Shown here: piece after piece, positions 5,568 through 34,147 of the stretch
Position numbering within the stretch: position 1 is the stretch's first letter
How the letters are laid out: every line of letters begins with the position of its first letter
Translations under genes and position numbers: made by a program
Notes under the pieces: model-generated
What the model was told of the DNA's origin: nothing
Databases searched by the model: none
What the model saw: the letters and a program-made list of their open reading frames with translations, nothing else
Source of the DNA: Kribbella solani
Lineage (GTDB): Bacteria > Actinomycetota > Actinomycetes > Propionibacteriales > Kribbellaceae
Reading direction: 5' to 3'
Assembly: GCF_014205295.1 (NCBI RefSeq)
Contig: NZ_JACHNF010000001.1
Location: 2,852,001 to 2,916,000 of the forward strand
DNA: 64,000 nt

Positions 5568-6760
5568 TGAAGATCCTGTTGGTGCACAACAGGTACAGGT
5601 CCACCGCACCGAGCGGCGAGAACCGTGTCGTCGACCAGGAGCACGCCGCGCTTGCGGAGCTCGGTCATGACGTCCAGCTGTTCGAACGGCGCAGTGACGA
5701 GATCGAAGACTGGTCTGCCTGGCAGAAGGCGACTCTACCGGCCCGCGTGGTCTGGAACCCGACCAGCAAACGCGACCTGACCGCCGTACTGCGCGACTTC
5801 CAGCCGGACGTCGTCCACGTACACAACACGTTCCCAGTACTCAGCCCATCGGTGCTGTACGCGTGCCGCCAGGCCAACGTGCCAGTGGTCATCACTCTGC
5901 ACAACTACAAACTGCTGTGCGCTAGCGGGGACTTCTACCGCGACGGTGCGGTCTGCCACGACTGCGCTACTGGCAGTCCGCTACCTGCCGTGTCGCACAG
6001 TTGCTACCGCGGGTCCAAAGTGGCGACAGCGACCACTGTGCTCAACACCCGCTCCCACCGGCGCAGCTGGCGCAAGCTGGTCTCGGCGTACCTGTTCCTG
6101 TCCGACTCACAGCGCAGTCTGCTGGCAGGCATGGACTTCGACCCGGACCGCAGCTTCGTACGCCACAACTACGTCCCGTACGACGGACCGGTCGGCGGAG
6201 CGAAACAGCATCAGGTCGCGTACGTAGGCCGGCTGGATGCGGCGAAAGGCGCTCCCCTGCTGATGAAGGGCTGGGACGCGTACCGGGCCATCGCCGGTGA
6301 CGATGCACTACGACTGGTCATTGCTGGTGGCGGACCGATGCTGGATGAGGTCACCGCCTGGGCAGCTGCTCGGCCGTCGGTCGACCTGCGCGGTCTGATG
6401 ACCAAGCCGGAGGTGTTCGAGCTGATCGACGCCTCGCGGGCCGTCGTACTCCCGTCCGAGTGGGAGGAGACGTTCGGACTGGTCGTGGTCGAGGCAATGG
6501 CGGTCGGCGTACCGCTACTTGCCTCCGGCCACGGTTCGTTCCCGGAGCTCGTGTCAGACGGAGTGGACGGCGCACTGTTCGATCCACGCCGTCCGGAAGA
6601 GCTGGCGAAGCTCCTGCTCGACGTAGACACCAACCCAGACCGGTACGAAGAGCTGGGCCGCGCGGCGCGCTCGACGTACGAGACCAAGCACCACCCACGG
6701 CACAACCTGGAGCAACTGCTCGACGTGTACCGCTTTGCGATCGCGAACCCGGTGCAGTGA
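5564..6760 (+). CDS. GT4-family glycosyltransferase
   Basis: Encodes 398 aa from GTG 5564, or 397 aa from the adjacent ATG at 5567; AGGAGGA lies directly upstream. The GT-B fold is recognisable. The N-terminal domain has the HVHNTFP motif and a cysteine-rich insert typical of a GT4 subgroup in polysaccharide clusters. The C-terminal domain has a YVGRLDAAKG strand, a GGGPM loop, and the E-x7-E type EETFGLVVVEAMA signature near residue 301. It transfers a sugar from a nucleotide donor to a lipid-linked intermediate in the cytoplasm. The gene overlaps the ligase stop and the next gene's start. The donor and linkage cannot be read from sequence. Confidence 0.9.
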   Translation: MMKILLVHNRYRSTAPSGENRVVDQEHAALAELGHDVQLFERRSDEIEDWSAWQKATLPARVVWNPTSKRDLTAVLRDFQPDVVHVHNTFPVLSPSVLYACRQANVPVVITLHNYKLLCASGDFYRDGAVCHDCATGSPLPAVSHSCYRGSKVATATTVLNTRSHRRSWRKLVSAYLFLSDSQRSLLAGMDFDPDRSFVRHNYVPYDGPVGGAKQHQVAYVGRLDAAKGAPLLMKGWDAYRAIAGDDALRLVIAGGGPMLDEVTAWAAARPSVDLRGLMTKPEVFELIDASRAVVLPSEWEETFGLVVVEAMAVGVPLLASGHGSFPELVSDGVDGALFDPRRPEELAKLLLDVDTNPDRYEELGRAARSTYETKHHPRHNLEQLLDVYRFAIANPVQ

Positions 6761-20854: not shown

Positions 20855-21925
20855 TCAGGCGGTGGCGGCGGTCAGGTCGACCTTCGGCTCCGCGAAGTGG
20901 CAGGCGGCGGTGTGGCCGGGCGTGGACTGCGGCTTGATCTCCAGCAGCGGCTCCTGCGTGCTGCAGATGTCCTCCGCCTTCCAGCAGCGGGTCCGGAACC
21001 GGCAGCCGCTCGGCGGGTCGATCGGCGAGGGTACGTCGCCGACCAGCCGGATCCGCTCCTTCGGCGGCACCCCACGAATGGTGCCCAGGTCCGGAGCGGC
21101 GGACAGCAGCGCCTGCGTGTACGGGTGCTGCGGCTCGTTGTAGATCTGGTCCCGGCTGCCCTGCTCGACGATCTTGCCGAGGTACATCACCGCGACCTCG
21201 TCACAGAAGTGCCGGACCACGCCCAGGTCGTGCGCGATGAACACGAACGCGATACCGAGGTCGCGGCGCAGGTCCTCCAGCAGGTTCATCACCTGGGCCT
21301 GGATGGACACGTCCAGCGCGGACACCGGCTCGTCGGCGATGATCACCTCGGGCTCGACCGCGAGCGCTCGGGCGATCCCGATCCGCTGCCGCTGACCGCC
21401 GGAGAACTCGTTCGGGTACCGGTTGTGGTGCTCCGGGTTCAGACCGACCCGCTCCAGCAGCTCCTGGACCCGCTCGAGCTCCTTGCCCTTCTTGACCAGG
21501 TTGTGCACCCGCAGCGGCGTACTGATGATGTTGCTGACCGTCTGCCGCGGGTTCAGCGAGCTGTACGGGTCCTGGAAGACGATCTGCAACTGCCGGCGGA
21601 ACGGGCGCAGGTCCCGCTCCTTCAGCTGCGCGATGTCGGTGCCCTTGAACATGATCTTGCCGCTGGTCGGCGTCAGCAGCCGGGTGATCATCCGGCCAGT
21701 GGTCGACTTGCCGCAGCCGGACTCGCCGACCAGGCCGAGGCTGGCGCCGGCCTTCAGGTCGAAGTCGACGCCGTCGACGGCCTGGACGACCTTCTTGGTC
21801 CGGCCCAGGCCGGCCGCCTCCTTGATCGGGAAGTGCATCTTCAGGTCCCGGACCTGAAGCAGCGTCTCGCCTTTGGGGGCCACCACGTCGACCGGTCGGG
21901 TCGCGTCGGTTGGGGTCTCGCTCAT
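20855..21925 (-). CDS. Peptide ABC transporter ATP-binding protein, OppF/DppF type
   Basis: Encodes 356 aa with Walker A GESGCGKST, Q-loop FQDPYSSLNPR, signature FSGGQRQRIGIARAL, Walker B VIIADEPVSALD and switch AHDLGVV. The C-terminal oligopeptide-family extension (PHPYTQALLSAAP-like, then CRFRTRCWKAEDIC) has the conserved cysteine pattern of the iron-sulfur-type extension. It is the last gene of a five-gene minus-strand operon and pairs with the OppD-type ATPase upstream. It probably imports di- or oligopeptides. Confidence 0.93.
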   Translation of the reverse strand: MSETPTDATRPVDVVAPKGETLLQVRDLKMHFPIKEAAGLGRTKKVVQAVDGVDFDLKAGASLGLVGESGCGKSTTGRMITRLLTPTSGKIMFKGTDIAQLKERDLRPFRRQLQIVFQDPYSSLNPRQTVSNIISTPLRVHNLVKKGKELERVQELLERVGLNPEHHNRYPNEFSGGQRQRIGIARALAVEPEVIIADEPVSALDVSIQAQVMNLLEDLRRDLGIAFVFIAHDLGVVRHFCDEVAVMYLGKIVEQGSRDQIYNEPQHPYTQALLSAAPDLGTIRGVPPKERIRLVGDVPSPIDPPSGCRFRTRCWKAEDICSTQEPLLEIKPQSTPGHTAACHFAEPKVDLTAATA

Positions 21926-21945
21926 GTCTCTCCTCAGTCCCCTCG

Positions 21946-23070
21946 TCAGCCCAGTCTCGGCGCGACCTCGGCCTCGTACACCGAGGCCTTGTCGTGCAGG
22001 TGACAGCGGGACGTGTGCGTGCCGGCGCCGTCGACCGGCAGCAGGTCGGGCAGCTCGGTGGTGCAGCGCTCCCCCTTGACCCGGTCCACGTACGGGCAGC
22101 GCGGGTTGAACGAGCAGCCGCCGGGCAGGTTCAGCAGGCTCGGCGGCAGGCCCTTGATCGGGCGCAGCCGCTCGTTCGCCGCGGACACGGTCGGGATCGA
22201 CTCGAGCAGGCCCCAGGTGTAGGGCATCCGCGGGTTCGCCAGTACGTCCTCGGCGGTGCCGTACTCGACGCAGCGGCCGGCGTACATCACCAGTACGTCG
22301 TCGGCCATCTCGGCGACCACGCCGAGGTCGTGCGTGATCAGGACGATCGCGGAGCCGAACTCCTTCTGCAGGTTGTTCAGCAGGTCCAGGATCTGGGCCT
22401 GGACGGTGACGTCGAGCGCGGTGGTCGGCTCGTCGGCGATCACCAGCTTCGGGTCGTTGATCAGGCTCATCGCGATCATCGCGCGCTGCCGCATACCGCC
22501 GGAGAACTCGTGCGGGTACTGGGCGAACCGGCGCGGCGGGTTCGGGATGCCGACCAGGTCGAGCATCTCCAGCGCGCGCTTCTTGGCGACGTCCTTGGAG
22601 ACCTTGTGATGCACCCGGTACGCCTCGACCAGCTGGTTGCCGATCGTGTACAGCGGGTGCAGCGACGACTGCGGGTCCTGGAAGACCATCGAAACGGCCT
22701 CGCCGCGGATCTTCATCAGGTCGCTCTCGGACAGGCCGACGATCTCGTCGCCGCCGAGCCGGATCGAGCCGGTGATCTTGGTCCGCTTGCGGTCGTGCAG
22801 GCCCATCACGGCCATGCTCGACACCGACTTGCCGGAGCCGGACTCGCCGACGATCGCCAGCGTCCGCCCGAGCGGCACCGAATAGCTCAGCCCGTTCACC
22901 GCGCTGACCTCGCCGTCGGCGGTCGGGAACCGGACGGCCAGATCCTCGACCACCAGGTACGGCGTCTCGCCGCTGGGGTTGAGGGCGCCCTGGCGGCGTT
23001 CCCGGGTGGCGACCGACGGACCGTGCTTGCCGGTCGCGGCGGCCGCCGGCGCTCCTGCGCTCTCGGCCAT
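21946..23070 (-). CDS. Peptide ABC transporter ATP-binding protein, OppD/DppD type
   Basis: The ATG at 23070 with GGAAGGA upstream gives 374 aa. A GTG at 23106 that overlaps the permease stop (GTGA) would add 12 residues and is a real alternative. Walker A GESGSGKSV, Q-loop FQDPQSSLHPLY, signature FSGGMRQRAMIAMSL, Walker B LVIADEPTTALD and the C-terminal CSFNPRCPYVDRV extension are present. It is the first of two ATPases for the peptide importer. Confidence 0.93.
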   Translation of the reverse strand: MAESAGAPAAAATGKHGPSVATRERRQGALNPSGETPYLVVEDLAVRFPTADGEVSAVNGLSYSVPLGRTLAIVGESGSGKSVSSMAVMGLHDRKRTKITGSIRLGGDEIVGLSESDLMKIRGEAVSMVFQDPQSSLHPLYTIGNQLVEAYRVHHKVSKDVAKKRALEMLDLVGIPNPPRRFAQYPHEFSGGMRQRAMIAMSLINDPKLVIADEPTTALDVTVQAQILDLLNNLQKEFGSAIVLITHDLGVVAEMADDVLVMYAGRCVEYGTAEDVLANPRMPYTWGLLESIPTVSAANERLRPIKGLPPSLLNLPGGCSFNPRCPYVDRVKGERCTTELPDLLPVDGAGTHTSRCHLHDKASVYEAEVAPRLG

Positions 23071-23102
23071 GGAGTCCTTCCGGTCTTCTGGGGCGGGATT
23101 GG

Positions 23103-24095
23103 TCACGACAGCCTCACTCGCGGGTCGATCAGGCTGTAGCCGATGTCCACCAGGAAGTTCATCACCACGATGATCACCGAAGCGACCAGTACGGTGCCCA
23201 TGATCACGGGCAGGTCGTAGTTGTTCAAGCTGTCCAGCACCAGCTGCCCGAGGCCGGGGAGGTCGAAGATCCGCTCGGTGAAGATCGCGCCGCCGAGACT
23301 GCCGGCGACGTCCAGACCGAAGATCGTCACGACCGGGATCAACCCGGACCGGAGCGCGTGCTTGTAGGTGACCACCCGGTCGGACAGGCCCTTGGCCCGC
23401 GCGGTCCGGATGAAGTCCTCGCTCAGGGTCTCGACCATCGACCCGCGCGAATACCGTGCGTACGACGTGCAGTTGTAGATGCCCAGCACCAGCCAGGGTG
23501 TTATCAGGCCGGCTATCCATTTCCCTGGACTGTCGAGGGGTGACGTCCAGGAACCGCGGGGCAGGATCGGGTACTGGATGGTGAGGTACAGCGCGACCAT
23601 CAGCGCGACGATGTAGTACGGCACCGAGCTGATCACCAGCGTGCTGGTCATCAGGCCGCGGTCGCCGAGCGTGCCTCTTCGTTTGGCTGCCATCGACCCG
23701 ACGAACACGCCTATCGTCAGGACCAGCACCGCGTACCCGAGCACCAGTGACACGGTGACCGGGAATCTGGTCGAGATCATGTCGGTGACCGGGCGGTTGT
23801 TCTTGAACGAGAAGCCCAGGCAGGGCGCGTCACAGTGCTGCGTCACACCGGACGTGGTGAAGTCCCGGCCGGTGAAGATGCCGCCCGCGTAGTCCGCGAA
23901 CTGCTGAACCTTCGGCTTGTCGAGGTTCAGGTTCCGCTTGATCTCGTTGTACCGCTGCTGGGTGCAGTTGCGGTCACCGCAGATCGCGCCGGCCGGGTCC
24001 GTCGGCGCGATGAAGAACAGCGCGAAGGTCGCGATGAGTGTCGCCAGCACGACGCTGAGCGCGCTGACCAGGCGACGCGCCACGAAGTAGAGCAC
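23103..24095 (-). CDS. Peptide ABC transporter permease, DppB/OppB type
   Basis: Encodes 330 aa. It starts with the classic MLYFVARRLVSALSVVLATLI first helix of DppB-family permeases. A long periplasmic loop contains unusual cysteines (CGDRNCTQQ, QHCDAPCLGF), then five more helices and the EAA-type coupling loop (RTARAKGLSDRVVTYKHALRSGL). The four cysteines in the external loop may form two disulfides. An unusual intercistronic hairpin separates it from the upstream binding-protein gene. Confidence 0.92.
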   Translation of the reverse strand: MLYFVARRLVSALSVVLATLIATFALFFIAPTDPAGAICGDRNCTQQRYNEIKRNLNLDKPKVQQFADYAGGIFTGRDFTTSGVTQHCDAPCLGFSFKNNRPVTDMISTRFPVTVSLVLGYAVLVLTIGVFVGSMAAKRRGTLGDRGLMTSTLVISSVPYYIVALMVALYLTIQYPILPRGSWTSPLDSPGKWIAGLITPWLVLGIYNCTSYARYSRGSMVETLSEDFIRTARAKGLSDRVVTYKHALRSGLIPVVTIFGLDVAGSLGGAIFTERIFDLPGLGQLVLDSLNNYDLPVIMGTVLVASVIIVVMNFLVDIGYSLIDPRVRLS

Positions 24096-24116
24096 GGAAC
24101 TGTCTCCTCACCGATC

Positions 24117-24151
24117 GGAGTGGTGCCCGGAGATGATCCGGGCACCACTCC
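24117..24151 (-). terminator. Intra-operon hairpin after the binding-protein gene
   Basis: A perfect 14-bp stem (GGAGTGGTGCCCGG and complement) with a 7-base loop lies between the binding-protein stop (24192) and the permease start (24095). It has no run of Ts. It may cause partial termination or protect the upstream mRNA, giving more binding protein than permease. Confidence 0.65.
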
Positions 24152-24191
24152 ACCGATTCACGGGGTGATTACTGCTTCAGGACGAGCCCGG

Positions 24192-25952
24192 TCAGGGCTG
24201 CTTCAGGTAGATCGAGGTGAACTCGGGCATACCCTGTGTCGGGTCGTTGATCGCGTGCCCGATGTTCTTACCGACCGGCGAGTTGGTGCCGGCGTAGTAG
24301 AGCGGCAGGACCGGAAGGTAGTTCTCCAGGATGTCCTTGTCGATCTTCGACCATTCCTTCAGCTGCTCTTCCGGCGACTTGGCGACGACCGCGTCGATCT
24401 TCGCGTCCAGCGCCTTGTCCTGCAGCTGACCGACGCTGTTGCCGAGCGCGATCGCGTCCGACTTGAACAGCACCGGGAACCAGCTGGTACCGGACGGCCA
24501 GTCGGAGCACCAGCCGGCCGGCGTCTTGCCGATGTTGACCGGAGCGTCCTGGTTGCCGACGAAGGTACGCAGCTTGGCCTTCGGGACACCGATCGCCTTG
24601 ACCGTGAAGCCGGCCTTCTCGTACGCCTGCTGACGCAGCTGGCTGACCTGGGACGCGATCTTGTCGTCGATCGAGAAGTACCAGGAGAGCTGGAAGCCGG
24701 ACTTGCCCAGCTTGGCGAGCTCGTCCTTGACCTGCTGCGCGACGGCCGGGTCCTCGGCGCCCTTACCGGTACCGTTCAGGCCCGGCAGCTCGTACTTCTC
24801 GAAGCCCGGGACGGCCGGCGGCAGGATGGTGGAAGCCGGCGGGCTGTCCTTCGGGTTCAGACCGGCGACCTTGCGCCACGAGTCGTACGGGTACGACTTG
24901 GCGATCAGCTTGCGGACCTCGAGGGGGATCTTCCGGCTGTCCATCGTGTACATCTGGTTGCACGGGCCGGGGCCGGTCACGAGCTGCGACTGGTCCTTGA
25001 CCTCGGGCAGCAGCGAGACGTCCAGGTTGCTGTAGTTCAGCGCGTTGGCGTCCGGGCCGGCGCTGGCCAGCACCTGGCGCTGCACCTTGATGGTGTCCTG
25101 GGCGAACTTGAAGTCCCAGCCGTCGACGTACTGGTGCCGCACCGGGTCGGTGTTCGGGTCCCAGTTCGGGTTCTTCGTCAGCTTGAGCTCGTTGCCGGGG
25201 TTGTACGACGCGACCTGGTACGGGCCGGTCGCCATCGGCTTCTGCTCGTAGTTCTTCTGGGTGTCCTTCGCCTGCGGGATCGGCGTGAACATCGGGAACG
25301 CACCGTAGAACGGCAGGTCGTCGAACTTCTTCGCCAGCTTGATGACCAGGGTGTGGTCGTCCGGCGTCTCGACACCGCGGTAGTTGGCGCCACCCGGGCC
25401 GTACGGGCCCTTGTACTTGTCGCCGTCCAGGAAGAACTGCTGCTGGTACGTCGGTCCGGCGTCGTACAGGTCGTGCGCGAAGGAGCGCTTGATCGAGTAC
25501 GCGAAGTCGGCCGCCTTCACCGGCGTGCCGTCCATGTACTTGATGCCCTGCTTGAGCTTGAACGTCCAGGTCAGACCGTCGGCGGACTTCGTACCCAGGT
25601 CCTCGGCGAGGTCCGGAACCAGCACCGGCTTGTGGTCCGGGCCGTCCAGGCGGTACTGCGTCAGCGCCCGGTAGAACAGCTTGCCGATCTGGTTACCGTC
25701 GACGTAGTAGATGTTCGTCGGGTCGAACGTGTCCGGCGTGACGTCGGACAGCACCGTGACGGTGCCACCCTTCTTCGCACCGTCCACCTCGGCGGCAGGG
25801 CCCTTGGCAGTGGGGTCAGTGGCCTTTACCTGAGCGCTGCCCAGTTCGCCGTTGCCACCACTGTTGTTGCCGTTCTTCGAGGACGGGCTGCCACAGGCCG
25901 CGGCGGCAACCATCACCGTCGCCGCGACCGCGGTTATCCGTTTCCACTGCAT
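24192..25952 (-). CDS. Peptide ABC transporter substrate-binding lipoprotein
   Basis: The ATG at 25952, after AAGGAG, gives 586 aa. The lipobox VAAAACGS places the lipidated Cys at about residue 20. An Asn/Gly/Ser linker follows, then the SBP_bac_5 fold: VTPDTFDPTNIYY, a conserved TWTFKLKQGIKYMDGTPVKA loop, ATGPYQVASYNPG, and the C-terminal half ending YYAGTNSPVGKNIGHAIND. It captures peptides at the cell surface. An A/T-richer 387-base gap lies upstream of the first operon gene. Confidence 0.95.
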   Translation of the reverse strand: MQWKRITAVAATVMVAAAACGSPSSKNGNNSGGNGELGSAQVKATDPTAKGPAAEVDGAKKGGTVTVLSDVTPDTFDPTNIYYVDGNQIGKLFYRALTQYRLDGPDHKPVLVPDLAEDLGTKSADGLTWTFKLKQGIKYMDGTPVKAADFAYSIKRSFAHDLYDAGPTYQQQFFLDGDKYKGPYGPGGANYRGVETPDDHTLVIKLAKKFDDLPFYGAFPMFTPIPQAKDTQKNYEQKPMATGPYQVASYNPGNELKLTKNPNWDPNTDPVRHQYVDGWDFKFAQDTIKVQRQVLASAGPDANALNYSNLDVSLLPEVKDQSQLVTGPGPCNQMYTMDSRKIPLEVRKLIAKSYPYDSWRKVAGLNPKDSPPASTILPPAVPGFEKYELPGLNGTGKGAEDPAVAQQVKDELAKLGKSGFQLSWYFSIDDKIASQVSQLRQQAYEKAGFTVKAIGVPKAKLRTFVGNQDAPVNIGKTPAGWCSDWPSGTSWFPVLFKSDAIALGNSVGQLQDKALDAKIDAVVAKSPEEQLKEWSKIDKDILENYLPVLPLYYAGTNSPVGKNIGHAINDPTQGMPEFTSIYLKQP

Positions 25953-25993
25953 GGTCGGGTTTCTCCTTTTCTGCCGCTGGGGCAATCGCCGAA

Positions 25994-27001
25994 CTACCGG
26001 CGAGTCTTGGGGTCGAAGGCGTCCCGGATCGCGTCTCCGAGCAGGGCCAGCGCGAGCACCAGTGCGGTGATCCCGATGACCGGCAGCCAGAGGTAGATCG
26101 GGTCGGCCTTGAAATAGTTGGTGGCGACCGAGATCGTCTGACCCCACGAGGGGATCGGCTCGACCAGTCCGACACCGAGGAAGGACAGCCCGGCCTCGGC
26201 GGTGACGTAGGCCGGCAGCGCCAGGGACGCGGAGATCACGATCGGGGCCACCAGGTTGGGCAGCAGTTCCTTGAACAGGACCTGTCCGGTCGGCACGCCG
26301 ATCGCCTTGGCGGCGAGCACGAACTCGCGCTCCCGCAGCGACAGCACCTCACCGCGGATGATCCGGGCCAGGCCGGCCCAGCCGAAGAACGAGAGCACGA
26401 AGATCAGCACCTGGAACCGGATCGACGCCTGCGCGTCCGGGGTCAGGTTGAACGAACCGCCGCGCATCGACTCGACGATCGGCACCAGCGCGATCGCGAA
26501 CAGCAGGTACGGCAGGCTCAGCACGAAGTCGATCAGCCAGGAGATCACCCGGTCGACCCAGCCGCCGAGGAAGCCGGCCAGCAGGCCCATCACGACGCCG
26601 ATCGCGGTTCCGACGACGGTGGCCAGGAAGGCGATGATCAGCGACGGGCGGGCGCCGTAGACCCAGCGCGCGAAGTTGTCCCGGCCGGTCTTCGGCTCGA
26701 CGCCGAACCAGTGCTGGGCGTTGATGCTGATGGTCGGGAACCCGTACTCGTCGACCAGGTCGGTGTTGAAGCTGCTGTAGTCCTGGCCCTCGAGCTTGGC
26801 CAGCACCGGCGCCAGGATCGCGATCAGGATGAAGAACAGCACGATCGACGCGCAGACCACCGCGACCTTGTCCTTGCGCAGGCGGTCGAAGGCGATCCGG
26901 CTCGGGGACTTGCCGTGCGGCGTCGCCGACGTCCGTACCGGCTCCGCCGACGCCGGGTGTTCTTCGACCCCTACGGTCGAGTCGGGCGACCCAATACTCA
27001 T
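25994..27001 (-). CDS. Peptide ABC transporter permease, DppC/OppC type, first gene of the operon
   Basis: The ATG at 27001 has GGAG 5-8 bases upstream; a GTG at 27007 is an alternative. It is a 335-aa protein with a polar N-terminus of about 45 residues, a first helix (VAVVCASIVLFFILIAILAP), the OppC external loop WFGVEPKTGRDNFARWVYGARPSL, five further helices and the coupling loop REFVLAAKAIGVPTGQVLFKELLPN. Having the DppC-type gene before the binding protein is uncommon but functional. The AfsR-type gene lies upstream on the same strand. Confidence 0.92.
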   Translation of the reverse strand: MSIGSPDSTVGVEEHPASAEPVRTSATPHGKSPSRIAFDRLRKDKVAVVCASIVLFFILIAILAPVLAKLEGQDYSSFNTDLVDEYGFPTISINAQHWFGVEPKTGRDNFARWVYGARPSLIIAFLATVVGTAIGVVMGLLAGFLGGWVDRVISWLIDFVLSLPYLLFAIALVPIVESMRGGSFNLTPDAQASIRFQVLIFVLSFFGWAGLARIIRGEVLSLREREFVLAAKAIGVPTGQVLFKELLPNLVAPIVISASLALPAYVTAEAGLSFLGVGLVEPIPSWGQTISVATNYFKADPIYLWLPVIGITALVLALALLGDAIRDAFDPKTRR

Positions 27002-27388
27002 TCGCACTCCGTCAGCTCAGTCGGCCGGTTTTCGGTCCGTGGATCCGGCACCCCGTCGGTGGACAGCGTGCCGAGCCTTTGCTCTCTGGTGGGCTGGCGC
27101 CAAATCCCCTTGACAGGGCGCTTCCCCCACAACCGCGCGCTAGCCTGCCTGAGACTGTGACACCAAACCAGCGGTGTTCGGCAGCAGTGCACAAATCGTT
27201 ACCGGAACGGGTACTGGAACGGAACATTTCCCCCATTTCGTCACTCTTGGCAGTCAATTCTTCGCAATGCGCGTCGGCACAGCACCGACAGTGGCCATTT
27301 TGTGCCAAGTTCTCACGCAATGTAACGAAAAGACACATTCCGCCGTCGGCGGTGCCAGTGCCGTGAACTGCCTCACTTCACCCGTTCT
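27002..27388. other. Intergenic gap upstream of the peptide transporter, with lower-GC core
   Basis: No gene is seen. The stretch 27171-27330 is visibly richer in A and T than its surroundings. On the minus strand, TTGGTG, 18 bases and TAGCGC near 27135-27165 is a weak candidate promoter for the transporter operon. A 13-base palindrome (CCGCCGTCGGCGG) lies near 27340. The region also carries the 3' side of the AfsR-type gene's transcription unit. Confidence 0.5.
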
Positions 27389-30265
27389 TCACCCGTTCGA
27401 GGGGTCTTTCGTCCGATGCGTGGACGCGGAGTCGAGGCCGAGGGCCTGACTGTGCATAGCCAGCTCGTACTTGGCGACACCGGTCGGCGGAAGCTTGCCG
27501 AGGGCCTCGGCCAGGACCCGCCGGGCGTCCGCCGGCCGGCCCGTGGCGACGTACAGCCGGGCCCAGCCGGCCGCGTTGGCGCTCTCGCCGTTGGTGTCCG
27601 GCCGGCGGGTCAGGATGCCGGCCGCGCGACGGAGCCTGGTCTCGGCTCCGGCCAGGTCCCCGGTCAGCACCAGGAGTTGCGCCTCGGTGTTGTCGACGTG
27701 CGCGCTCCCGAGCTCGTCGCCGATCCGCTCGACGATCTCGCGGGCCTCGGCAAGCACCGCGGTCAGTTCCGGGATGTGCGCGGCGCCCAGGCCGTCGCCG
27801 GCCAGCAGCGACTCCGCCAGCAGGACGAGGCGAATCGCGTGCAGGCGCGTCCCGGCCGGGCTCAGCGCAGCCGCCTCGCGGCGCGCCTGCCGGCCTTCGT
27901 CGATCCGCCCGGAGAGAAAGTACCCGCCGCCGACCTGATCCAGCGCCCGGGCTCGTTCCGGCTCGGCCTCGGGGTTCGCGTCGACCGCGGCGAGCATCGC
28001 CTCGCCCACTCGACTCATGCCGGCGAAGTCGCCGACCTGGGCGGTCAGCCAGCCCTGCTGGCTGAGGGTGGCCATCCGCAGCCGCACGTTTCCGGTCTGT
28101 TCGGCCAACGCGTCCGCTCGGTCGGTGAGCGGCCGCATCACCTCCACCGCTGCTCCGGCCTGCGCGAGAGCACCGAACAGGCACCGGCTGAGGTCGGCCT
28201 CGAGCTCGATCTCCCCGGCCGTCGCGGCGGCAGCGCGGGCCGCGTCGAGGACGGAGTGCCGTACTTCGCGGTCGTCGCGTACCGCGAGGTAGCCGGCGAA
28301 CCTGAGCGCCAGCATGCCGCCGAGCCGCGGCCATTTCGGCAGCGCGCGTTCGACCGCGGCCCGGACCACCGGGCCTTCCACGTCCAGCCAGCCGGCCCCG
28401 GCGGCGGCCAGCGCTTCGGTCGCCGGTAGCGCGAAGCTGCCGCCGCGATCGAGCTCGATGATCACCGCCGCGTGATCGACGTGTTCGTCGGCGATCGTCA
28501 CCAGCCGGAGGACGGTGTCCAGGTAGCGCAGCTCGTCGTCGTCCGCGGCCGCGTACTGCTCGACCGCCAGCGCGCGGACCATGCCGTGCAAACCGTACCG
28601 AGGCGGACTGATCCGGCGTTGCTGTACGAGTCCGAGCGCGACGAGGTTCTCGAAGACAACCGCTGCCGCGTCCTCGTCCAGGTCGAGCAGCGGCGCGGCC
28701 ACCCACGCGGCGAACTCGTCCGCGCCGACCAGAGCCAGCCGAGCGAACAGGTCCCGAGTGAGTGAGTCGGCCACCCGGAGGGTCAGATCAAGGCTGGCTC
28801 GAACCGCCCGGTCACCTGCGACCAGGTAGTCGAGGCGCAACGACTCGTCCGCGAGTGTCTTCACCACGTGACCGACGTCTTCGCGTACGACGGCCAGCCG
28901 CGCCCCGACGATGCGCAGGGCCAGCGGTAGACCAGCGCAGTGTGGAACCAGGTCATTGACCCGCTCGGCGCCGAGACCGGACAGCAGGCCGAGCAGCTCG
29001 GCACTTGTGCCATCCGGCAGTGGCTCGAGCTCACGGTGTAGCGCGTCCTCCAGACCGAGCAGCGGGCGACGCGACGTGGTGATCACCGCGCAGCTGCCAT
29101 TCGCCGGAAGCAACGGCCGGAGCTGTCCGGCATCGATGGCGTCGTCGAACACCATCAGTACGGCCCTGTCGGCCAGGCGGCTTCGTAGCAGGGCGGACCG
29201 GGCATCCACCTCATCCGGGATCTCGCCGCTGTCCAGACCGAGCGAGCGAAGCAGTCGGCCCAGTACTACCCCTGGCGGTACGGCATCACCGGCGACGTCT
29301 TGGAGGCGTACGAACAGTTGTCCATCTGGGTACTCGCTGGCGAGCTGATGACCTAGTCGAACCGCAGCGGCTGACTTACCCGTTCCAGCTGCGCCGTACA
29401 AGCAGACCGCAGCTGGTACGCCTGTCTGTCGCCCGGAATCGAGCAATACCTGAGCAGCTTCGGCTAATAGCTCGTCACGGCCGAGAAGTACGCCGACGTC
29501 CGCCGGGATCTCACGTGGTACGCCGCTTGCTGTGGCGAGGTCCAGGACCGGGTCCTGGCGGAGGATCGCCACTTGGAGCTCTCGGGCCTCGGTGCCTGGT
29601 CCTACACCTAGTTCTTCGTCGAGATGGCGGACCAGTTCGCCGTACGCGGCCAGGGCGTCCGCCTGCCGACCAGAACGGTACAGAGCGAGCATGTGGGCAA
29701 CAGCAAAGGTCTCGCGCTCGGGCTGGAGGGCAGTGAGCTGCGCGAGGTCGGGTAGTAGTTCCTGGTGGTGGCCCAGGGCAAGCTCCGTTGCCAGGCGCAG
29801 CTCTTCCGCCGCCCAGCGTGACTCTTCGAGGCTTCCGCACAGCCGGCGCCGTACGTCCTCGGCTGTGACGCCAGACAGCGCTGGACCGCGCCACAGCTGC
29901 AGTGCCTCCGTCAGCAGCTTGCTGCGGCGGTCCAAGTCCTCCTGGCGTCGCGCCTGCTCCACCAGCGACTTGAACCGCTCAGCGTCGACCTGTCCGGGCT
30001 CCGCGTGGATCGCGTAGCCCTCGGTACCGCTTGTCACTTCGGGGTCCAGAACAGCGCGCAGCCGGGACATGTACACCTGCAGTGCGCGCCGCGGGTTGGC
30101 CGGCAAAGCGTCTGGCCAGAGCAGGTCGATCAGACGCTCGGCCGGCACCGGCTTGCTTGGTTCGAGCAGTAGTACAGCCAGCAGGAGCCGCTCCTGGCGA
30201 CGGCGTAACGGGAGTTGCTCGCCTTTCGACCAGATCTGGACCGGACCGAGCAGGCGGAACTCCAT
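27389..30265 (-). CDS. AfsR/SARP-family transcriptional regulator (BTAD, NB-ARC, TPR)
   Basis: Encodes 958 aa from ATG 30265; ATG 30277 would add four residues but lies within the likely -10 box. The winged-helix DNA-binding domain is at about residues 1-90 (MEFRLLGPVQIW to YMSRLRAVL), followed by the bacterial activation domain (about 95-240). The NB-ARC ATPase has a P-loop GAAGTGKSAA near 290, VLMVFDDA, ITTSRR and CAGLPLALR. A long C-terminal TPR-like helical region completes it. SARPs activate secondary-metabolite genes by binding direct repeats; NB-ARC/TPR members are ligand- or phosphorylation-gated. A divergent 8-codon ORF lies immediately upstream. Confidence 0.93.
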   Translation of the reverse strand: MEFRLLGPVQIWSKGEQLPLRRRQERLLLAVLLLEPSKPVPAERLIDLLWPDALPANPRRALQVYMSRLRAVLDPEVTSGTEGYAIHAEPGQVDAERFKSLVEQARRQEDLDRRSKLLTEALQLWRGPALSGVTAEDVRRRLCGSLEESRWAAEELRLATELALGHHQELLPDLAQLTALQPERETFAVAHMLALYRSGRQADALAAYGELVRHLDEELGVGPGTEARELQVAILRQDPVLDLATASGVPREIPADVGVLLGRDELLAEAAQVLLDSGRQTGVPAAVCLYGAAGTGKSAAAVRLGHQLASEYPDGQLFVRLQDVAGDAVPPGVVLGRLLRSLGLDSGEIPDEVDARSALLRSRLADRAVLMVFDDAIDAGQLRPLLPANGSCAVITTSRRPLLGLEDALHRELEPLPDGTSAELLGLLSGLGAERVNDLVPHCAGLPLALRIVGARLAVVREDVGHVVKTLADESLRLDYLVAGDRAVRASLDLTLRVADSLTRDLFARLALVGADEFAAWVAAPLLDLDEDAAAVVFENLVALGLVQQRRISPPRYGLHGMVRALAVEQYAAADDDELRYLDTVLRLVTIADEHVDHAAVIIELDRGGSFALPATEALAAAGAGWLDVEGPVVRAAVERALPKWPRLGGMLALRFAGYLAVRDDREVRHSVLDAARAAAATAGEIELEADLSRCLFGALAQAGAAVEVMRPLTDRADALAEQTGNVRLRMATLSQQGWLTAQVGDFAGMSRVGEAMLAAVDANPEAEPERARALDQVGGGYFLSGRIDEGRQARREAAALSPAGTRLHAIRLVLLAESLLAGDGLGAAHIPELTAVLAEAREIVERIGDELGSAHVDNTEAQLLVLTGDLAGAETRLRRAAGILTRRPDTNGESANAAGWARLYVATGRPADARRVLAEALGKLPPTGVAKYELAMHSQALGLDSASTHRTKDPSNG

Positions 30266-30272
30266 GGCGCTG

Positions 30273-30278
30273 AGCATA
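30273..30278 (-). promoter_or_regulatory. -10 hexamer TATGCT for a leaderless AfsR-type transcript
   Basis: On the minus strand TATGCT is followed by seven bases and then ATG 30265. No ribosome binding site is visible. This spacing decides the start codon and argues for leaderless translation. Confidence 0.5.
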
Positions 30279-30298
30279 CGGCTGCCGCGGGTGCGGAT

Positions 30299-30327
30299 GG
30301 TAAGCGCGCGGTAACAGCCCCGGGTCA
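30299..30327 (+). promoter_or_regulatory. SARP-like direct repeats between AfsR-type gene and tiny ORF
   Basis: GGTAAGC (30299-30305) and GGTAACA (30310-30316) are spaced 11 bp start to start; a third, weaker copy CGGGTCA is at 30321-30327, again 11 bp on. SARPs bind heptamer direct repeats with this pitch next to a promoter -10 region. The sites lie between the regulator and the divergent 8-codon ORF, so autoregulation or control of the ORF is possible. Confidence 0.4.
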
Positions 30328-30366
30328 GTCTTCGGGCATCAACCCGCCCCGACGGAAGGACTGGCC

Positions 30367-30393
30367 ATGAAGCGAGCCTGGGACTGGGGCTGA
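30367..30393 (+). CDS. Candidate 8-codon ORF (MKRAWDWG) upstream of the AfsR-type regulator
   Basis: ATG to TGA encodes MKRAWDWG. GGAAGGA at 30354-30360 sits six bases before the ATG, a strong ribosome binding site with no other gene to serve. The ORF ends two bases before the gcvT stop on the other strand. Two of eight residues are Trp, in the order W-D-W. Nothing but the ribosome binding site and position supports translation. It could be a regulatory peptide, a leader peptide or chance. Confidence 0.4.
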   Translation: MKRAWDWG

Positions 30394-30395
30394 GG

Positions 30396-31502
30396 TCAGG
30401 CCTCCCGGACGTTCACCGTGACGAAGGGAGGCTTCACCACGTCGAACAGCTCCTGCCGGCCGCGGATGTCGACGGTGACCTGGTCGCCTTCCTTGACCGT
30501 CGCGTCCAGCAGCGCCAGGGCGACACCCTTCTTCAGCGTCGGCGAGAAGGTGCCGGACGTGACCTCACCGAGCGCCGTACCGGCCTGGTCCAGCACCGAC
30601 ATGTGCGGCCTGGGGATGCCACGGCCGGCGGCGCGCAAACCACGCAGGATGCGGGCCGGGCCACGCTCCTTCTCGGCCCGGAGCGCCGCGTCGCCCCAGA
30701 AGTGCTCCTTCTTCCAGCCGACGGCCCAGCCGGACCGCGCCTGGACAGGCGTGATGTCAGGCGAGATGTCCTGGCCGTGCAGTGGGTAGCCCATCTCGGT
30801 ACGCAGCGTGTCGCGGGCACCGAGTCCAGCCGGGACGATGCCGTACTGCGCACCCGCTTCGAGTAGCGCATCAAAGACGGGTAGTGCGGCCGCGTTCGGT
30901 ACGACCAGCTCGTACCCACGCTCTCCGGTGTAACCGGTGCGGCAGACCACCACCGGCGTACCGTTGAAGTCTGCCGTGGCGAACGACATGTAGTCGTGTC
31001 CGATCGGTAGCCCGATCGCCGCCACCACCTCGTCGCTGTGGGTTCCCTGGACCGCGAGGATCGCGTAGTCGTCGTGCACGTTCGTCACCTCGACACCTGC
31101 CGGCGCATCCGCCTGCAGCAGCCGCACCACCTCGGCCGTGTTCGCCGCGTTCGGGATCAGGAACACGTCGTCGTCGGCGTGCAGGTACGCGATCAGGTCG
31201 TCGACCACTCCCCCGCGCTCGTTGCAGCACAGGGTGTACTGCGCCTGGCCGGCCGCGATCTTGCCCAGGTCGTTGGTCAGGCAAGCGTTCACGTACGCCG
31301 CCGCGCCCGGGCCCTTGACGGTCGCCTTGCCGAGGTGACTGACGTCGAAGACGCCGACCGACGTCCGGACCGCGGTGTGCTCGGCCACCACGCCGGCGTA
31401 CTCCAGTGGCATCTCCCAGCCGCCGAACTCGGCGAACTTGGCGCCGAGCGCGACGTGGCGCTCGTGCAACGGGGACTTCTTCAACTCGTGCGACGTGGTC
31501 AT
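30396..31502 (-). CDS. gcvT: Glycine cleavage system T protein (aminomethyltransferase)
   Basis: Encodes 368 aa from ATG 31502. The folate-binding fold shows [20 protein letters not shown] at the N-terminus, [31 protein letters not shown], the catalytic-region [10 protein letters not shown] and [18 protein letters not shown], and the C-terminal barrel ending [12 protein letters not shown] and [12 protein letters not shown]. It transfers the methylene group from the lipoyl H protein to tetrahydrofolate. H and P proteins are not in the window; its lipoate dependence ties it to lpdA, lipA and lipB nearby. No ribosome binding site, but a TAGTTT seven bases upstream suggests a leaderless mRNA. Confidence 0.95.
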
Positions 31503-31509
31503 GGAGGGG

Positions 31510-31515
31510 AAACTA
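31510..31515 (-). promoter_or_regulatory. -10 hexamer TAGTTT for a leaderless gcvT transcript
   Basis: On the minus strand TAGTTT, seven bases, then ATG of gcvT. The upstream sequence CCCCTCC has no Shine-Dalgarno character. Confidence 0.55.
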
Positions 31516-31599
31516 CCCGACGCGTAGCATGCGGAGGCAGCTTGCACGTACCGTGACGACCGGCCCGCTGCCCGCCGGTCAAGGAGGACTGAGGATTTC

Positions 31600-33102
31600 G
31601 TGACCACCATCACCCTGAGCAAGTCCGATGCCGCCGGCGTCAAGACCGACGCCGTGGTCATCGGCGTGGTCAAGCTCGGCGGCGGCGTCGCTCTGCCGGC
31701 CGGCACCGAGTCGCTGAACGCCGCATACGGCGGGAAGCTGGTGGAGGTGCTGTCCGGACTCGGCGCCACCGGCAAGACCGGCGAGGTGACCAAGGTGCCC
31801 GGGCCGCTGCTGACCAAGCCGGGCAAGTCGGCGACGCTGATCGCCGTCGGCCTCGGCGCCGCCCCGGACGGCGAGCTGAAGACCGAGGACCTGCGGACCG
31901 CCGCGGGGACCGGTGTCCGCGCCGCCAAGTTCACCCAGTCGGTCGCGTTCGCGCTGCCGGCGCCGGACGCCGAGTGCGTCCGGGCCGTGGCCGAAGGCGC
32001 CCTGATGGGGCGGTACGCGTTCACGGCGTACAAGTCGGCCGACAGCGCCGACGAGCCGGGCGCGCTGACCGTGCTCACCGACCTGGCCCGGAACAAGGAC
32101 GCCAAGGCCGCGCTCGAGCGCGCCCAGGTGACCGCCGAGGCGGTCGCGCAGGTCCGGGACTGGGTGAACACGCCGCCGTCCGACCTGCACCCGGCCGAGT
32201 TCGCGGCCGACGCGGTCAAGCTCGGCAAGGAGTACGGCGTCAAGGTCGAGGTGCTCGACGAGAAGGCGCTCGGCAAGGGCGGGTACGGCGGCATCCTCGG
32301 CGTCGGCCAGGGCTCGGCCAACCCGCCGCGGCTGGTCCGGCTGACCTACACGCCGCGCAAGCCGGTGACGCATCTGGCGTTCGTCGGGAAGGGCATCACC
32401 TTCGACTCCGGCGGCCTGTCGCTGAAGACGTCGAACGGCATGGTCAGCATGAAGTCCGACATGGCCGGCGCGGCCGCGGTGATCGGCGCGACGATCGCCA
32501 TCGCCCGGCTCGGGCTGCCGGTGCAGGTGACGACGTACGCCGCGATGGCCGAGAACATGCCGTCCGGTTCGGCGGCCCGGCCGTCCGACGTGCTGACCAT
32601 GTACGGCGGCAAGACCGTCGAGGTGCTGAACACCGACGCCGAGGGCCGGCTGGTACTCGGCGACGCGCTGGTCCGCGCCTCCGAGGACGCGCCCGACCTG
32701 ATCGTCGACGTGGCCACCCTGACCGGTGCCTGTGTCGTTGCCCTGGGCACCAAGGTGGCCGGCGCGTTCGCGAACACCGACACCGCCCGGGACCGGGTCG
32801 TGGAGGCCGCGATCACGGCCGGCGAGGCGATCTGGCCGCTGCCGATCCCGGCCGAGATGCTGGACAAGCTGAAGTCCCACTCGAAGGTCGCCGACCTGGC
32901 CAACATCACCGGCGAGCCGTGGGGCGGCGCGCTCGCGGCGGCCGCCTTCCTCGGCGATTTCGTTGCCGATGGCATCGACTGGGTGCACCTGGACGTGGCC
33001 GGGCCGGCCTTCAACGACGGCGGCGCGGCGGGGTACAACCCCACCGGCGGCACCGGGTACGCGGTCCGTACGCTGGTGGAGCTTGCCGCTTCAGCTAGCT
33101 GA
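31600..33102 (+). CDS. pepA: Leucyl aminopeptidase
   Basis: Encodes 500 aa from GTG 31600, with AAGGAGG upstream. An N-terminal macrodomain-like region is followed by the M17 catalytic domain: [11 protein letters not shown] near residue 263 with the metal-binding Lys and Asp, [11 protein letters not shown], and [14 protein letters not shown] near residue 343. It is a two-metal exopeptidase that removes N-terminal residues in the cytoplasm. Divergent from gcvT across 97 bases. Its 3' end overlaps the convergent cupin gene by 12 bases. Confidence 0.97.
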
Positions 33103-33423
33103 GTAACGCGTTTCCAGCATGGTGCAGCCGACGGTCGTCCGGTAAGGACCGTGCGGCATCCCCGGCGGCCGGCAGGCATAGTCGCCGGGGCGGAACGTCC
33201 GCTCGAGGGTGAGATCGGTGAGCTCGCCCTCGAGCAGGTACACCTCTTCTACGTACTCGTGCGTGATCACCTCGGCGCCTGATGCCGTACCGGGTGCCCA
33301 GCGGGCCAGGCGGGTCAGCGTGCCGTCACCGGCGTCCGCGCTGAGGACCTTCTCGGCGATACCGCCACCCGCATCGACCCAGTCGAGGTCGCCGGTGGCG
33401 AAGAATTCGTGTTCGGCCTTCAT
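33091..33423 (-). CDS. Small cupin-domain protein
   Basis: The ATG at 33423 gives 110 aa; a longer frame reaches 33531 but its extra residues come from repeated DNA and the neighbouring gene's end. The cupin barrel is visible: ITHEYVEEVYLLEGELTD and RTFRPGDYACRPPGMPHGPY, with metal-ligand His/Glu/His residues. The fold resembles ChrR-type and other single-domain cupins. It lies 53 bases downstream of the DUF2848 gene on the same strand. A 33-base direct repeat is in the spacer. The metal or reaction is unknown. Confidence 0.75.
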   Translation of the reverse strand: MKAEHEFFATGDLDWVDAGGGIAEKVLSADAGDGTLTRLARWAPGTASGAEVITHEYVEEVYLLEGELTDLTLERTFRPGDYACRPPGMPHGPYRTTVGCTMLETRYSAS

Positions 33424-33426
33424 CGT

Positions 33427-33483
33427 CAGTCCCGTCTCGTGGTCGGTCCCGGCTTGTGTCGGTCCCGTCTCGTGGTCAGTCCC
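33427..33483. repeat. Two-copy 33-base-period direct repeat before the cupin gene
   Basis: GTCCCGTCTCGTGGTC occurs at 33429-33444 and again at 33462-33477. It covers the spacer and the last codons of the DUF2848 gene, and explains the extra DHETG-type residues of the longer frame. Confidence 0.7.
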
Positions 33484-34147
33484 AGGCCGGGGCGAGCTGC
33501 TCGACGTTGTAGACAATCCTACTGACGACATTCCGCGGATCGGCGAGCTCGACCCGCCAGCCGTCGGCGAACTGGTCGACGCCCGCGATCATCGGAATCG
33601 TCCCGCTCAGCAGCACGGTTCCCGGTACCAACCGGTCGCCCAGCTCCTTGATCCAGTACGACGGCGGCAACAGCTGTGCCAGCGTGCCGTCCTGGATCAG
33701 CGTTTCGGTGTCACCGTGCCGAACCCAGGCCTTCAGCGTGAACTGGTCCAGCTCATGCTCGATCTCACCGAGCGGCCAAGCGACATCGCCAAGCAGGTCC
33801 GGCGCGGACTGCTTGCTCCACGCGACTCCGTGCACCTCGAGCGCACGATCGGTGTGATCGCAGGCGACGGTGAGAAGTAGGTCGTCCTCGCCGACGACCA
33901 GCGCCCACTCCGCCTCGCCGGACGTCCTGGCGTGCGGGACCTGGACCATCTCCGGCCGGCCGACGAGTGACGCGGACAGCGGGTACAGAGTCGGGATTCG
34001 CGAGGGCGCCGGGACTCCGAGCTCGGCCAGCTCGTCCACGTGGTGCTGGACCTGCAGGGTGTCGCGCCCGGCGTACCCCGCGTTCAGGGCGTAGCGGACC
34101 GTGACCGTCCGCTCACTGCCATCGGGCAGGGTGAACTGCAGGCTCAT
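33476..34147 (-). CDS. DUF2848 family protein
   Basis: Encodes 223 aa from ATG 34147, with GGAGGA upstream. It has the pattern of DUF2848: MSLQFTLPDGSERTVTV, VRYALNAGYAGRD, HVDELAELGVPAPS near residue 45, then EWALVVGEDDLLLTVACDHTDRALE and SWAKQ-like segments. Family members lie in catabolic operons and have a fold linked to fumarylacetoacetate-hydrolase-like proteins (family knowledge, moderate certainty). It is divergent from an MHS transporter with a GTATAC site between, and upstream of a cupin gene. A shared pathway with the transporter, GntR regulator and nitrilase is inferred. Confidence 0.75.
   Translation of the reverse strand: MSLQFTLPDGSERTVTVRYALNAGYAGRDTLQVQHHVDELAELGVPAPSRIPTLYPLSASLVGRPEMVQVPHARTSGEAEWALVVGEDDLLLTVACDHTDRALEVHGVAWSKQSAPDLLGDVAWPLGEIEHELDQFTLKAWVRHGDTETLIQDGTLAQLLPPSYWIKELGDRLVPGTVLLSGTIPMIAGVDQFADGWRVELADPRNVVSRIVYNVEQLAPAWD

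Follow-up and report, generated by a model that had tools for sequence, protein, structure and literature searches.

The window analysed here is a 64-kb stretch of the Kribbella solani genome (contig NZ_JACHNF010000001.1, 64,000 nucleotides), and the subject of this work is a very short gene that lies within it beside a large regulator of the SARP (Streptomyces antibiotic regulatory protein) type. The gap between two minus-strand genes, gcvT and the gene of the 958-aa SARP, holds on the plus strand a direct repeat, a −10-like hexamer, a Shine–Dalgarno (SD) sequence and an open reading frame (ORF) of eight codons, MKRAWDWG. The ORF is divergent from the SARP gene and its end is separated from gcvT by 2 bp. 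It is very likely a real gene. Genomes are referred to below by number, the window's own genome being G000, and the features of the locus are as follows:

30367..30393, plus strand: ORF MKRAWDWG, eight codons with stop TGA, ATGAAGCGAGCCTGGGACTGGGGCTGA; conserved elsewhere as MTRAWDWG, MARAWDWG and MIRTWDWG.
30354..30360, plus strand: SD sequence GGAAGGA, 6 nt 5′ of the ATG; an SD-like stretch is also seen by eye in G001, G005 and G020.
30299..30316, plus strand: SARP-type box GGTAAGC-N4-GGTAACA, an 11-bp direct repeat; present in 11 of 38 Kribbella genomes and in none of 353 others of the order.
30326..30331, plus strand: predicted −10 hexamer CAGTCT of the peptide gene, 9 nt 3′ of the box; xAnnnT at equal spacing in 15 of 15 boxes, a pattern recognised post hoc.
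30273..30278, minus strand: predicted −10 hexamer TATGCT of the SARP gene, with a leaderless start; TANNNT lies 5–7 nt before the start at 13 of 13 loci.
27389..30265, minus strand: large SARP regulator of 958 aa with BTAD, NB-ARC and a C-terminal superhelix resembling tetratricopeptide repeats (TPR) by predicted fold.
30396..31502, minus strand: gcvT, a neighbour in all 38 genomes, outside the module.
20855..27007, minus strand: oligopeptide ABC transporter operon (two ATPases, two permeases and SBP_bac_5), part of the module only by speculation.

The original prediction had placed MKRAWDWG between the SARP gene and gcvT with GGAAGGA six bases before its ATG, and had pointed to GGTAAGC and GGTAACA at an 11-bp pitch. 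Both are present as described, the two heptamers occupying 30299–30305 and 30310–30316. A weaker third repeat, also claimed, is unconvincing: the heptamers one 11-bp step outward read CGGGTGC (30288) and CGGGTCA (30321). The proposed leaderless ATG of the SARP gene at 30265 is plausible, with TATGCT 7 nt upstream; the coding part of this gene spans 27392–30265 on the minus strand, with the stop in addition. A scan for sigma-70 consensus promoters and terminators found nothing within 30200–30500, and no Rfam family reached its gathering threshold in 27000–34000.

Taken alone, the MKRAWDWG ORF is unremarkable, since SD-preceded ORFs of 5–20 codons number 42 on both strands of the window. The arithmetic chance expectation for such an ORF in the SARP–gcvT gap is about 0.09, and the excess over chance lies in conservation. 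Conservation was followed by comparing a 9.5-kb stretch that surrounds the gcvT end and extends downstream of it across 37 other Kribbella genomes, making a total of 38 with G000. A SARP gene (SARP1) stands between gcvT and the oligopeptide transporter operon in 13 of the 38, the own genome included; the other 25 have no SARP match there. The position facing SARP1, referred to as the peptide slot, holds an intact WDWG ORF on the facing strand at four of these 13 loci (MKRAWDWG, MTRAWDWG, MARAWDWG and MIRTWDWG), a decayed copy at one and a longer ORF at eight. In the decayed slot, that of G004, a premature stop leaves VVTESWD. The check advised at the outset, a comparison of relatives beside the orthologous regulator, thus found start, SD sequence and stop kept in four genomes.

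Among these four, codon 2 and the 5′ leader vary freely, and pairwise identity amounts to 71–95% over codons 3–9 versus 34–59% over the leader. The changes within codons 3–9 are CGA/CGG, GCC/GCT/ACG, GAC/GAT, GGC/GGT and TGA/TAA, with a single amino-acid change, Ala to Thr. Between G005 and G000 there are five nucleotide differences and one amino-acid difference (P = 0.0054, simulation); genome pairs with only one change are uninformative (P about 0.18). That the ORF arose by chance in a short gap would agree with the frequency of such frames in the window, but it is extremely improbable given that four diverged genomes have kept the ORF and that WDWG recurs elsewhere.

The first reading of the locus had overlooked both this recurrence beside other regulators and a signal-peptide-like ORF in the equivalent place in eight species. 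In these eight SARP1 genomes, the slot holds a longer ORF that begins with what appears by eye to be a signal peptide, followed by a GRGWC-like core and usually HCRG. Its ratio of nonsynonymous to synonymous change (pN/pS) is 0.18–0.71 over six aligned pairs. It overruns the gcvT stop in antisense in seven of the eight genomes, among them G031, whose frame has no stop within the fetched stretch.

The box was sought as exact matches across the whole of the other Kribbella genomes. In the 11 genomes that carry it, GGTARGY-N4-GGTAACA is always found at the SARP1 locus; extra exact copies occur in G018 (within the SARP–gcvT gap) and in G030 (far away). The SARP1 boxes of G014 and G037 each have a one-base mismatch, so that all 13 SARP1 loci carry the box, two of them mismatched. 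The 25 genomes that lack SARP1 have no exact box, and the backward-read pattern gave seven matches in the same 391 genomes in which no box was found outside Kribbella. Within its own genome, the window's box is the sole match with 0–1 mismatch. At up to two mismatches there are 33 matches versus 54 for the backward control, and these weak matches are uninformative since they are fewer than the control.

In each of the 15 boxes, 9 nt separate the end of the second heptamer from a hexamer whose second base is A and whose sixth is T, a pattern that serves as a description and not a test because it was recognised after looking. In G028, G030, G031 and G009 the hexamer has an ATG 6–8 nt behind it, resembling leaderless mRNAs. 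Across loci, the box lies 8 to 33 nt from the SARP start while the hexamer spacing is constant, so the box looks set for the peptide promoter. This bears out the earlier proposal that SARP-like repeats are aimed at the tiny ORF, the 9-nt spacing being present at 13 of 13 loci. Published SARP promoters have direct repeats 11 or 22 bp apart with the 3′ repeat 8 bp from the −10, that of afsS being CACTGT, according to PMC10936776; the present layout agrees to within 1 bp (11-bp pitch, 9 nt to the −10). Since the xAnnnT hexamer 9 nt beyond the box is oriented toward the peptide, the peptide gene is probably a SARP target. In G001, G004 and G020 the SARP gene's own −10 overlaps the box. Two further boxes may be mentioned: the second box of G030 precedes, at 9-nt spacing from its hexamer, a 144-aa protein of secreted appearance at a place remote from the SARP locus (L127:3846-4346), and the gap in G018 (L072) contains two boxes, the gcvT-proximal one having no clear ORF behind it.

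The SARP protein matches the Pfam families BTAD, Trans_reg_C and NB-ARC, giving the order of a large SARP, with the SARP domain followed by NB-ARC. Its best sequence match in the PDB is AfsR (8k60), at 1e-79 over residues 2–609. It is not an AfsR orthologue by the NCBIfam equivalog NF053617, scoring 337 of 1430 bits, and it matches, far below the cut-off, two TPR families of systems for ribosomally synthesised and post-translationally modified peptides (RiPPs), HaaT and FxSxx. PADLOC gave no match for it. The predicted structure has a mean pLDDT (per-residue confidence score) of 71.8 and a pTM (predicted template modelling score) of 0.44 overall; residues 630–940, mostly at pLDDT 75–97, align with TPR proteins. 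The peptide receptors Rap, NprR and AimR are among the further fold matches of this C-terminal half, with Z of about 17–22. The original prediction had likened a TPR-containing regulator to peptide-sensing systems; the TPR half stands by predicted fold only, and the comparison with peptide sensing may be considered reasonable. SARP1 has only 402–429 aa in G004 (L062), G018 (L072), G030 (L074) and G031 (L071), where the TPR half is absent and the protein ends at roughly one common point inside NB-ARC. In the SARP1 tree, the sisters of G004 (G001) and G030 (G028) are long, which suggests repeated loss of the C-terminal half.

The description of the ORF as isolated does not hold, as the WDWG ending also occurs beside other regulators. 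A family pattern, WDWG directly before a stop and after Ser, Pro, Thr or Ala (other variants lying outside it), has 27 matches in 20 of the 38 Kribbella genomes and none when read backward. Regulators adjoin 23 of the 27: four beside SARP1, 16 beside a LuxR-type regulator (LuxR-B), two beside an XRE-type regulator and one beside another SARP. The rest comprise one at a contig edge and three judged to be chance-like and set aside, namely the end of a long frame in G010, a second site in G022 with no start codon, and the start of another gene on contig 5 of G004.

At the LuxR-B site, a WDWG ORF faces LuxR-B near the regulator's 3′ end in 16 genomes, and 15 of the 16 copies have an in-frame start with an SD sequence, mostly TTG (e.g., MPCPPSPPRAWDWG and MSCLTKPLSRAWDWG); the G021 copy is frameshifted. 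In two genomes a WDWG ORF faces the end of an XRE-NB-ARC-TPR regulator, as MAGATDPDCPSLAWDWG in G000 (L166:6074-6127) and as MPSNNRRKAWDWG in G004. Relatives hold at this site MPFNNRRKPWDSGWG (G001), MQDDTGWG (G030) and MRDTSWGRLSGH (G028); MQDDTGWG, again of eight codons with an SD sequence, faces the XRE regulator at L188:1285-1311. In G020, a WDWG ORF is divergent from a second, different SARP (L168:6293-6364), and GCAGAAACCTGCAAG flanks this ORF on both sides, at 6193 and 6412 (L168:6193-6426). The LuxR site of G010, G014 and G027 has instead a signal-peptide-like frame ending in GWCI or GWCT, with an unclear start in G014. When SARP and LuxR sites are considered jointly, no genome has both peptide types (19 with the WDWG type, 10 with the GWC type). 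This mutual exclusion is weak because only G001, G004, G005 and G014 have both sites, G001 being counted by its contig-edge match and G004 by its decayed SARP-site copy.

Across the 16 LuxR-site genomes, the 15 nt TGGGACTGGGGCTRA differ in the stop codon alone. It could be postulated from this invariant core that what is conserved is an element acting as DNA or RNA where gene ends converge, and that no peptide gene exists. The motif does lie at a gene's 3′ end in three of four site types, and the rare Arg codon CGA recurs (9% of Arg codons in eight genes of the window). This explanation is distinctly improbable, however, in view of the synonymous changes at the SARP site (GAC/GAT, GGC/GGT, CGA/CGG and TGA/TAA), the SD sequence and in-frame start in 15 of 16 LuxR-site copies, and the longer protein-coding ORFs that take its place in relatives. 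Part of the LuxR-site invariance is also expected from codon bias, as GAC accounts for 92% of Asp codons and GGC for 61% of Gly codons. Beside the second SARP of G020, moreover, a crude gene caller found no gene of at least 80 aa for 1.6 kb downstream. Alternatively, the act of translating a Trp-rich minigene might matter and the product itself have no role, the effect coming from sensing of Trp-tRNA or from ribosomes arrested close to the stop. By its definition the motif has two Trp codons shortly before the stop, the second separated from it by Gly alone; yet the downstream same-strand sequence in the window is antisense gcvT, leaving nothing obvious to attenuate, and the longer signal-peptide-like ORF fills the slot in relatives, so that this explanation appears very improbable.

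The occurrence of tiny WDWG peptides beside several unrelated regulators suggests a peptide signalling system that has gone unrecognised. The favoured reading, which has an even chance of being correct, is that of a divergent two-gene module composed of the SARP and its eight-codon target, the peptide acting as signal or ligand for the neighbouring regulator. The gene and promoter are well supported. From the conserved ORF, the box, the promoter geometry and the recurrence beside regulators, all features of the sequence itself, we infer the signalling role and its steps: SARP binding, translation, release, import, peptide binding and feedback. A SARP dimer would bind the 11-bp repeats and bring RNA polymerase to the weak −10 on the side of the peptide gene, resulting in an mRNA that would encode little beyond xRxWDWG. 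In G001, G004 and G020, the SARP should at the same time damp its own expression because the box overlaps its own −10. The product would belong to a Kribbella peptide family with a common WDWG C-terminus and a variable N-terminus, adjoining regulators of three classes. The adjacent regulator could read the peptide as a signal or ligand, perhaps after release and re-uptake, forming a feedback loop as in the leaderless SIP/RopB system. AfsR provides a possible mechanism, as its SARP domain is restrained by the NOD and TPR domains according to PMC10936776; in the simplest loop, the peptide from the SARP's own target gene would relieve or impose such a restraint. That the peptide is a signal at all is a reasonable proposal with chances that are about even.

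Several observations weigh against a peptide signal read by its neighbour. MKRAWDWG carries no export signal, as the original prediction had already stated, eight residues being too short for one, and an exporter for it is not known, no search aimed at one having been made. Pfam detects no TPR family in the SARP at E 0.001, and the best solved fold matches of the C-terminal half are the TPR domains of LGN (Z 22.9) and not receptors of peptide pheromones; folds of the TPR kind are widespread, and a fold shared in a predicted model would show no function. Three of the four genomes with a TPR-less SARP1 retain the longer-type peptide gene, so the TPR half is not obligatory. At the LuxR site, the peptide of G021 is frameshifted beside an open LuxR-B, while LuxR-B itself looks interrupted or split in G002, G023, G029 and G032, which retain the WDWG ORF, and in G027, which retains its peptide frame; the LuxR-B match of G014 contains a stop. 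The nucleotide invariance at this site would also be expected from a function at the nucleotide level. Two XRE sites have neither WDWG nor GWC, and a single origin of the eight-codon class obtains weak support in the tree (57/94).

The peptide may instead be an output, that is, an effector or RiPP precursor whose production the local SARP controls; WDWG would then be the site at which a tailoring enzyme common to the family, and encoded elsewhere, acts. Several loci combine a common C-terminus with a variable N-terminus, as a shared processing enzyme would require, and the sub-cut-off matches of the SARP to HaaT and FxSxx point in the same direction. SARPs are known activators of antibiotic biosynthesis (PMC10936776), and a biarylitide precursor gene of 18 bp serves as precedent (PMC13417212). 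Nevertheless, no obvious tailoring enzyme is present among the 13 Pfam-scanned proteins around the ORF, the rest of the genome not having been searched, and regulators adjoin the other WDWG loci. An output role is thus possible but unlikely. Biarylitides resemble the present case in that a very short peptide gene escapes automatic annotation, and differ in having five residues and dedicated P450 enzymes; no P450 was found among the 13 neighbouring proteins scanned.

Known regulator–peptide pairs offer closer comparisons. The afsS gene is a small gene near afsR, and the genes of SIP and RopB are likewise neighbours, RopB being an Rgg-type regulator that carries TPRs. AfsR–afsS of Streptomyces coelicolor shares with the present locus a large SARP with NB-ARC/NOD and TPR regions, and direct repeats at an 11-bp pitch that overlap the −35 region of a weak promoter (PMC10936776). 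It differs in that the Kribbella target has eight codons, is divergent and is too short for comparison with AfsS, and in that the box GGTARGY/GGTAACA was found in one genus. SIP–RopB of Streptococcus pyogenes pairs an eight-residue leaderless peptide, secreted and re-imported, with an intracellular receptor that regulates genes, as reported in PMC6565748; peptide sequence, regulator family and phylum are different. NosP is described as a SARP responding to peptidyl ligands from the nosiheptide precursor, hence to a gene-encoded peptide; it differs in being said to respond to a metabolite and its intermediates (PMC10972967), no product of that kind being known here.

The RRNPP family (Rap, Rgg, NprR, PlcR, PrgX and AimR) likewise combines an adjacent small peptide gene with a TPR regulator, and three of its members, Rap, NprR and AimR, can be aligned with the predicted TPR half. 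A peptide slot adjoins the regulator at 13 of 13 SARP1 loci, one of them decayed. RRNPP receptors are given as TPR proteins of 250–500 aa (PMC10075063); the Kribbella regulator has 958 aa, with SARP and NB-ARC domains in front, and its host belongs to the Actinobacteria. Their peptides carry a Sec signal, which the eight-residue peptide lacks and the longer ORFs of relatives appear by eye to have; PptAB is the alternative export route in RRNPP systems. Membership therefore fails on receptor length and Sec signal; the two systems may still work alike.

A wider reading can be offered tentatively, with somewhat less than an even chance: a system of Kribbella's own, in which leaderless peptides have WDWG as their common C-terminal address and each finds its partner in a different regulator class (SARP-NB-ARC-TPR, XRE-NB-ARC-TPR or LuxR-type), some species having secreted GWC peptides in the same slots. 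It would be an actinobacterial peptide counterpart of RRNPP. Kribbella has many SARP and NB-ARC-TPR regulators, and to our knowledge the inputs of such regulators are mostly unknown. If the reading is true, a peptide encoded by a gene next to such a regulator, and with only one strong operator in the genome, would be a testable ligand. Signals in Actinobacteria are typically enzyme-made small molecules according to a 2023 RRNPP paper (PMC10075063). Working eight-codon genes would then also exist that are missed by peptide-signalling search tools, whose default minimum is 10 aa (PMC10075063).

Outside the sites described, the motif was rare. No SD-preceded WDWG ORF was found at loci L004-L010, L023-L040 and L091-L119, which include other genera, apart from one loose match at L096. 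RxWDWG before a stop occurred in one of 396 genomes of a phylum sample, the own genome only, and in 11 places on viral contigs, several being near-copies of one another and none having an SD start. The 11 sites of genomes with LuxR-A only contained no WDWG and two loose Trp-containing matches (L185 and L191), the longer signal-peptide types not having been looked for there. The literature covered, from which subscription papers and preprints were largely absent, contained no WDWG peptide and no SARP with an adjacent signal peptide.

The oligopeptide transporter was considered as cognate importer of the peptide and dropped as evidence. Its permeases and substrate-binding protein adjoin gcvT in each of the 38 genomes, whether the SARP is present or absent, so its proximity is not informative. 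The other SARP copies inspected had no WDW ORF within 450 bp upstream on the divergent strand. Beyond the transporter, a second SARP is present in G001, G004, G018, G020, G028 and G030, all of which also have SARP1 (L120-L125).

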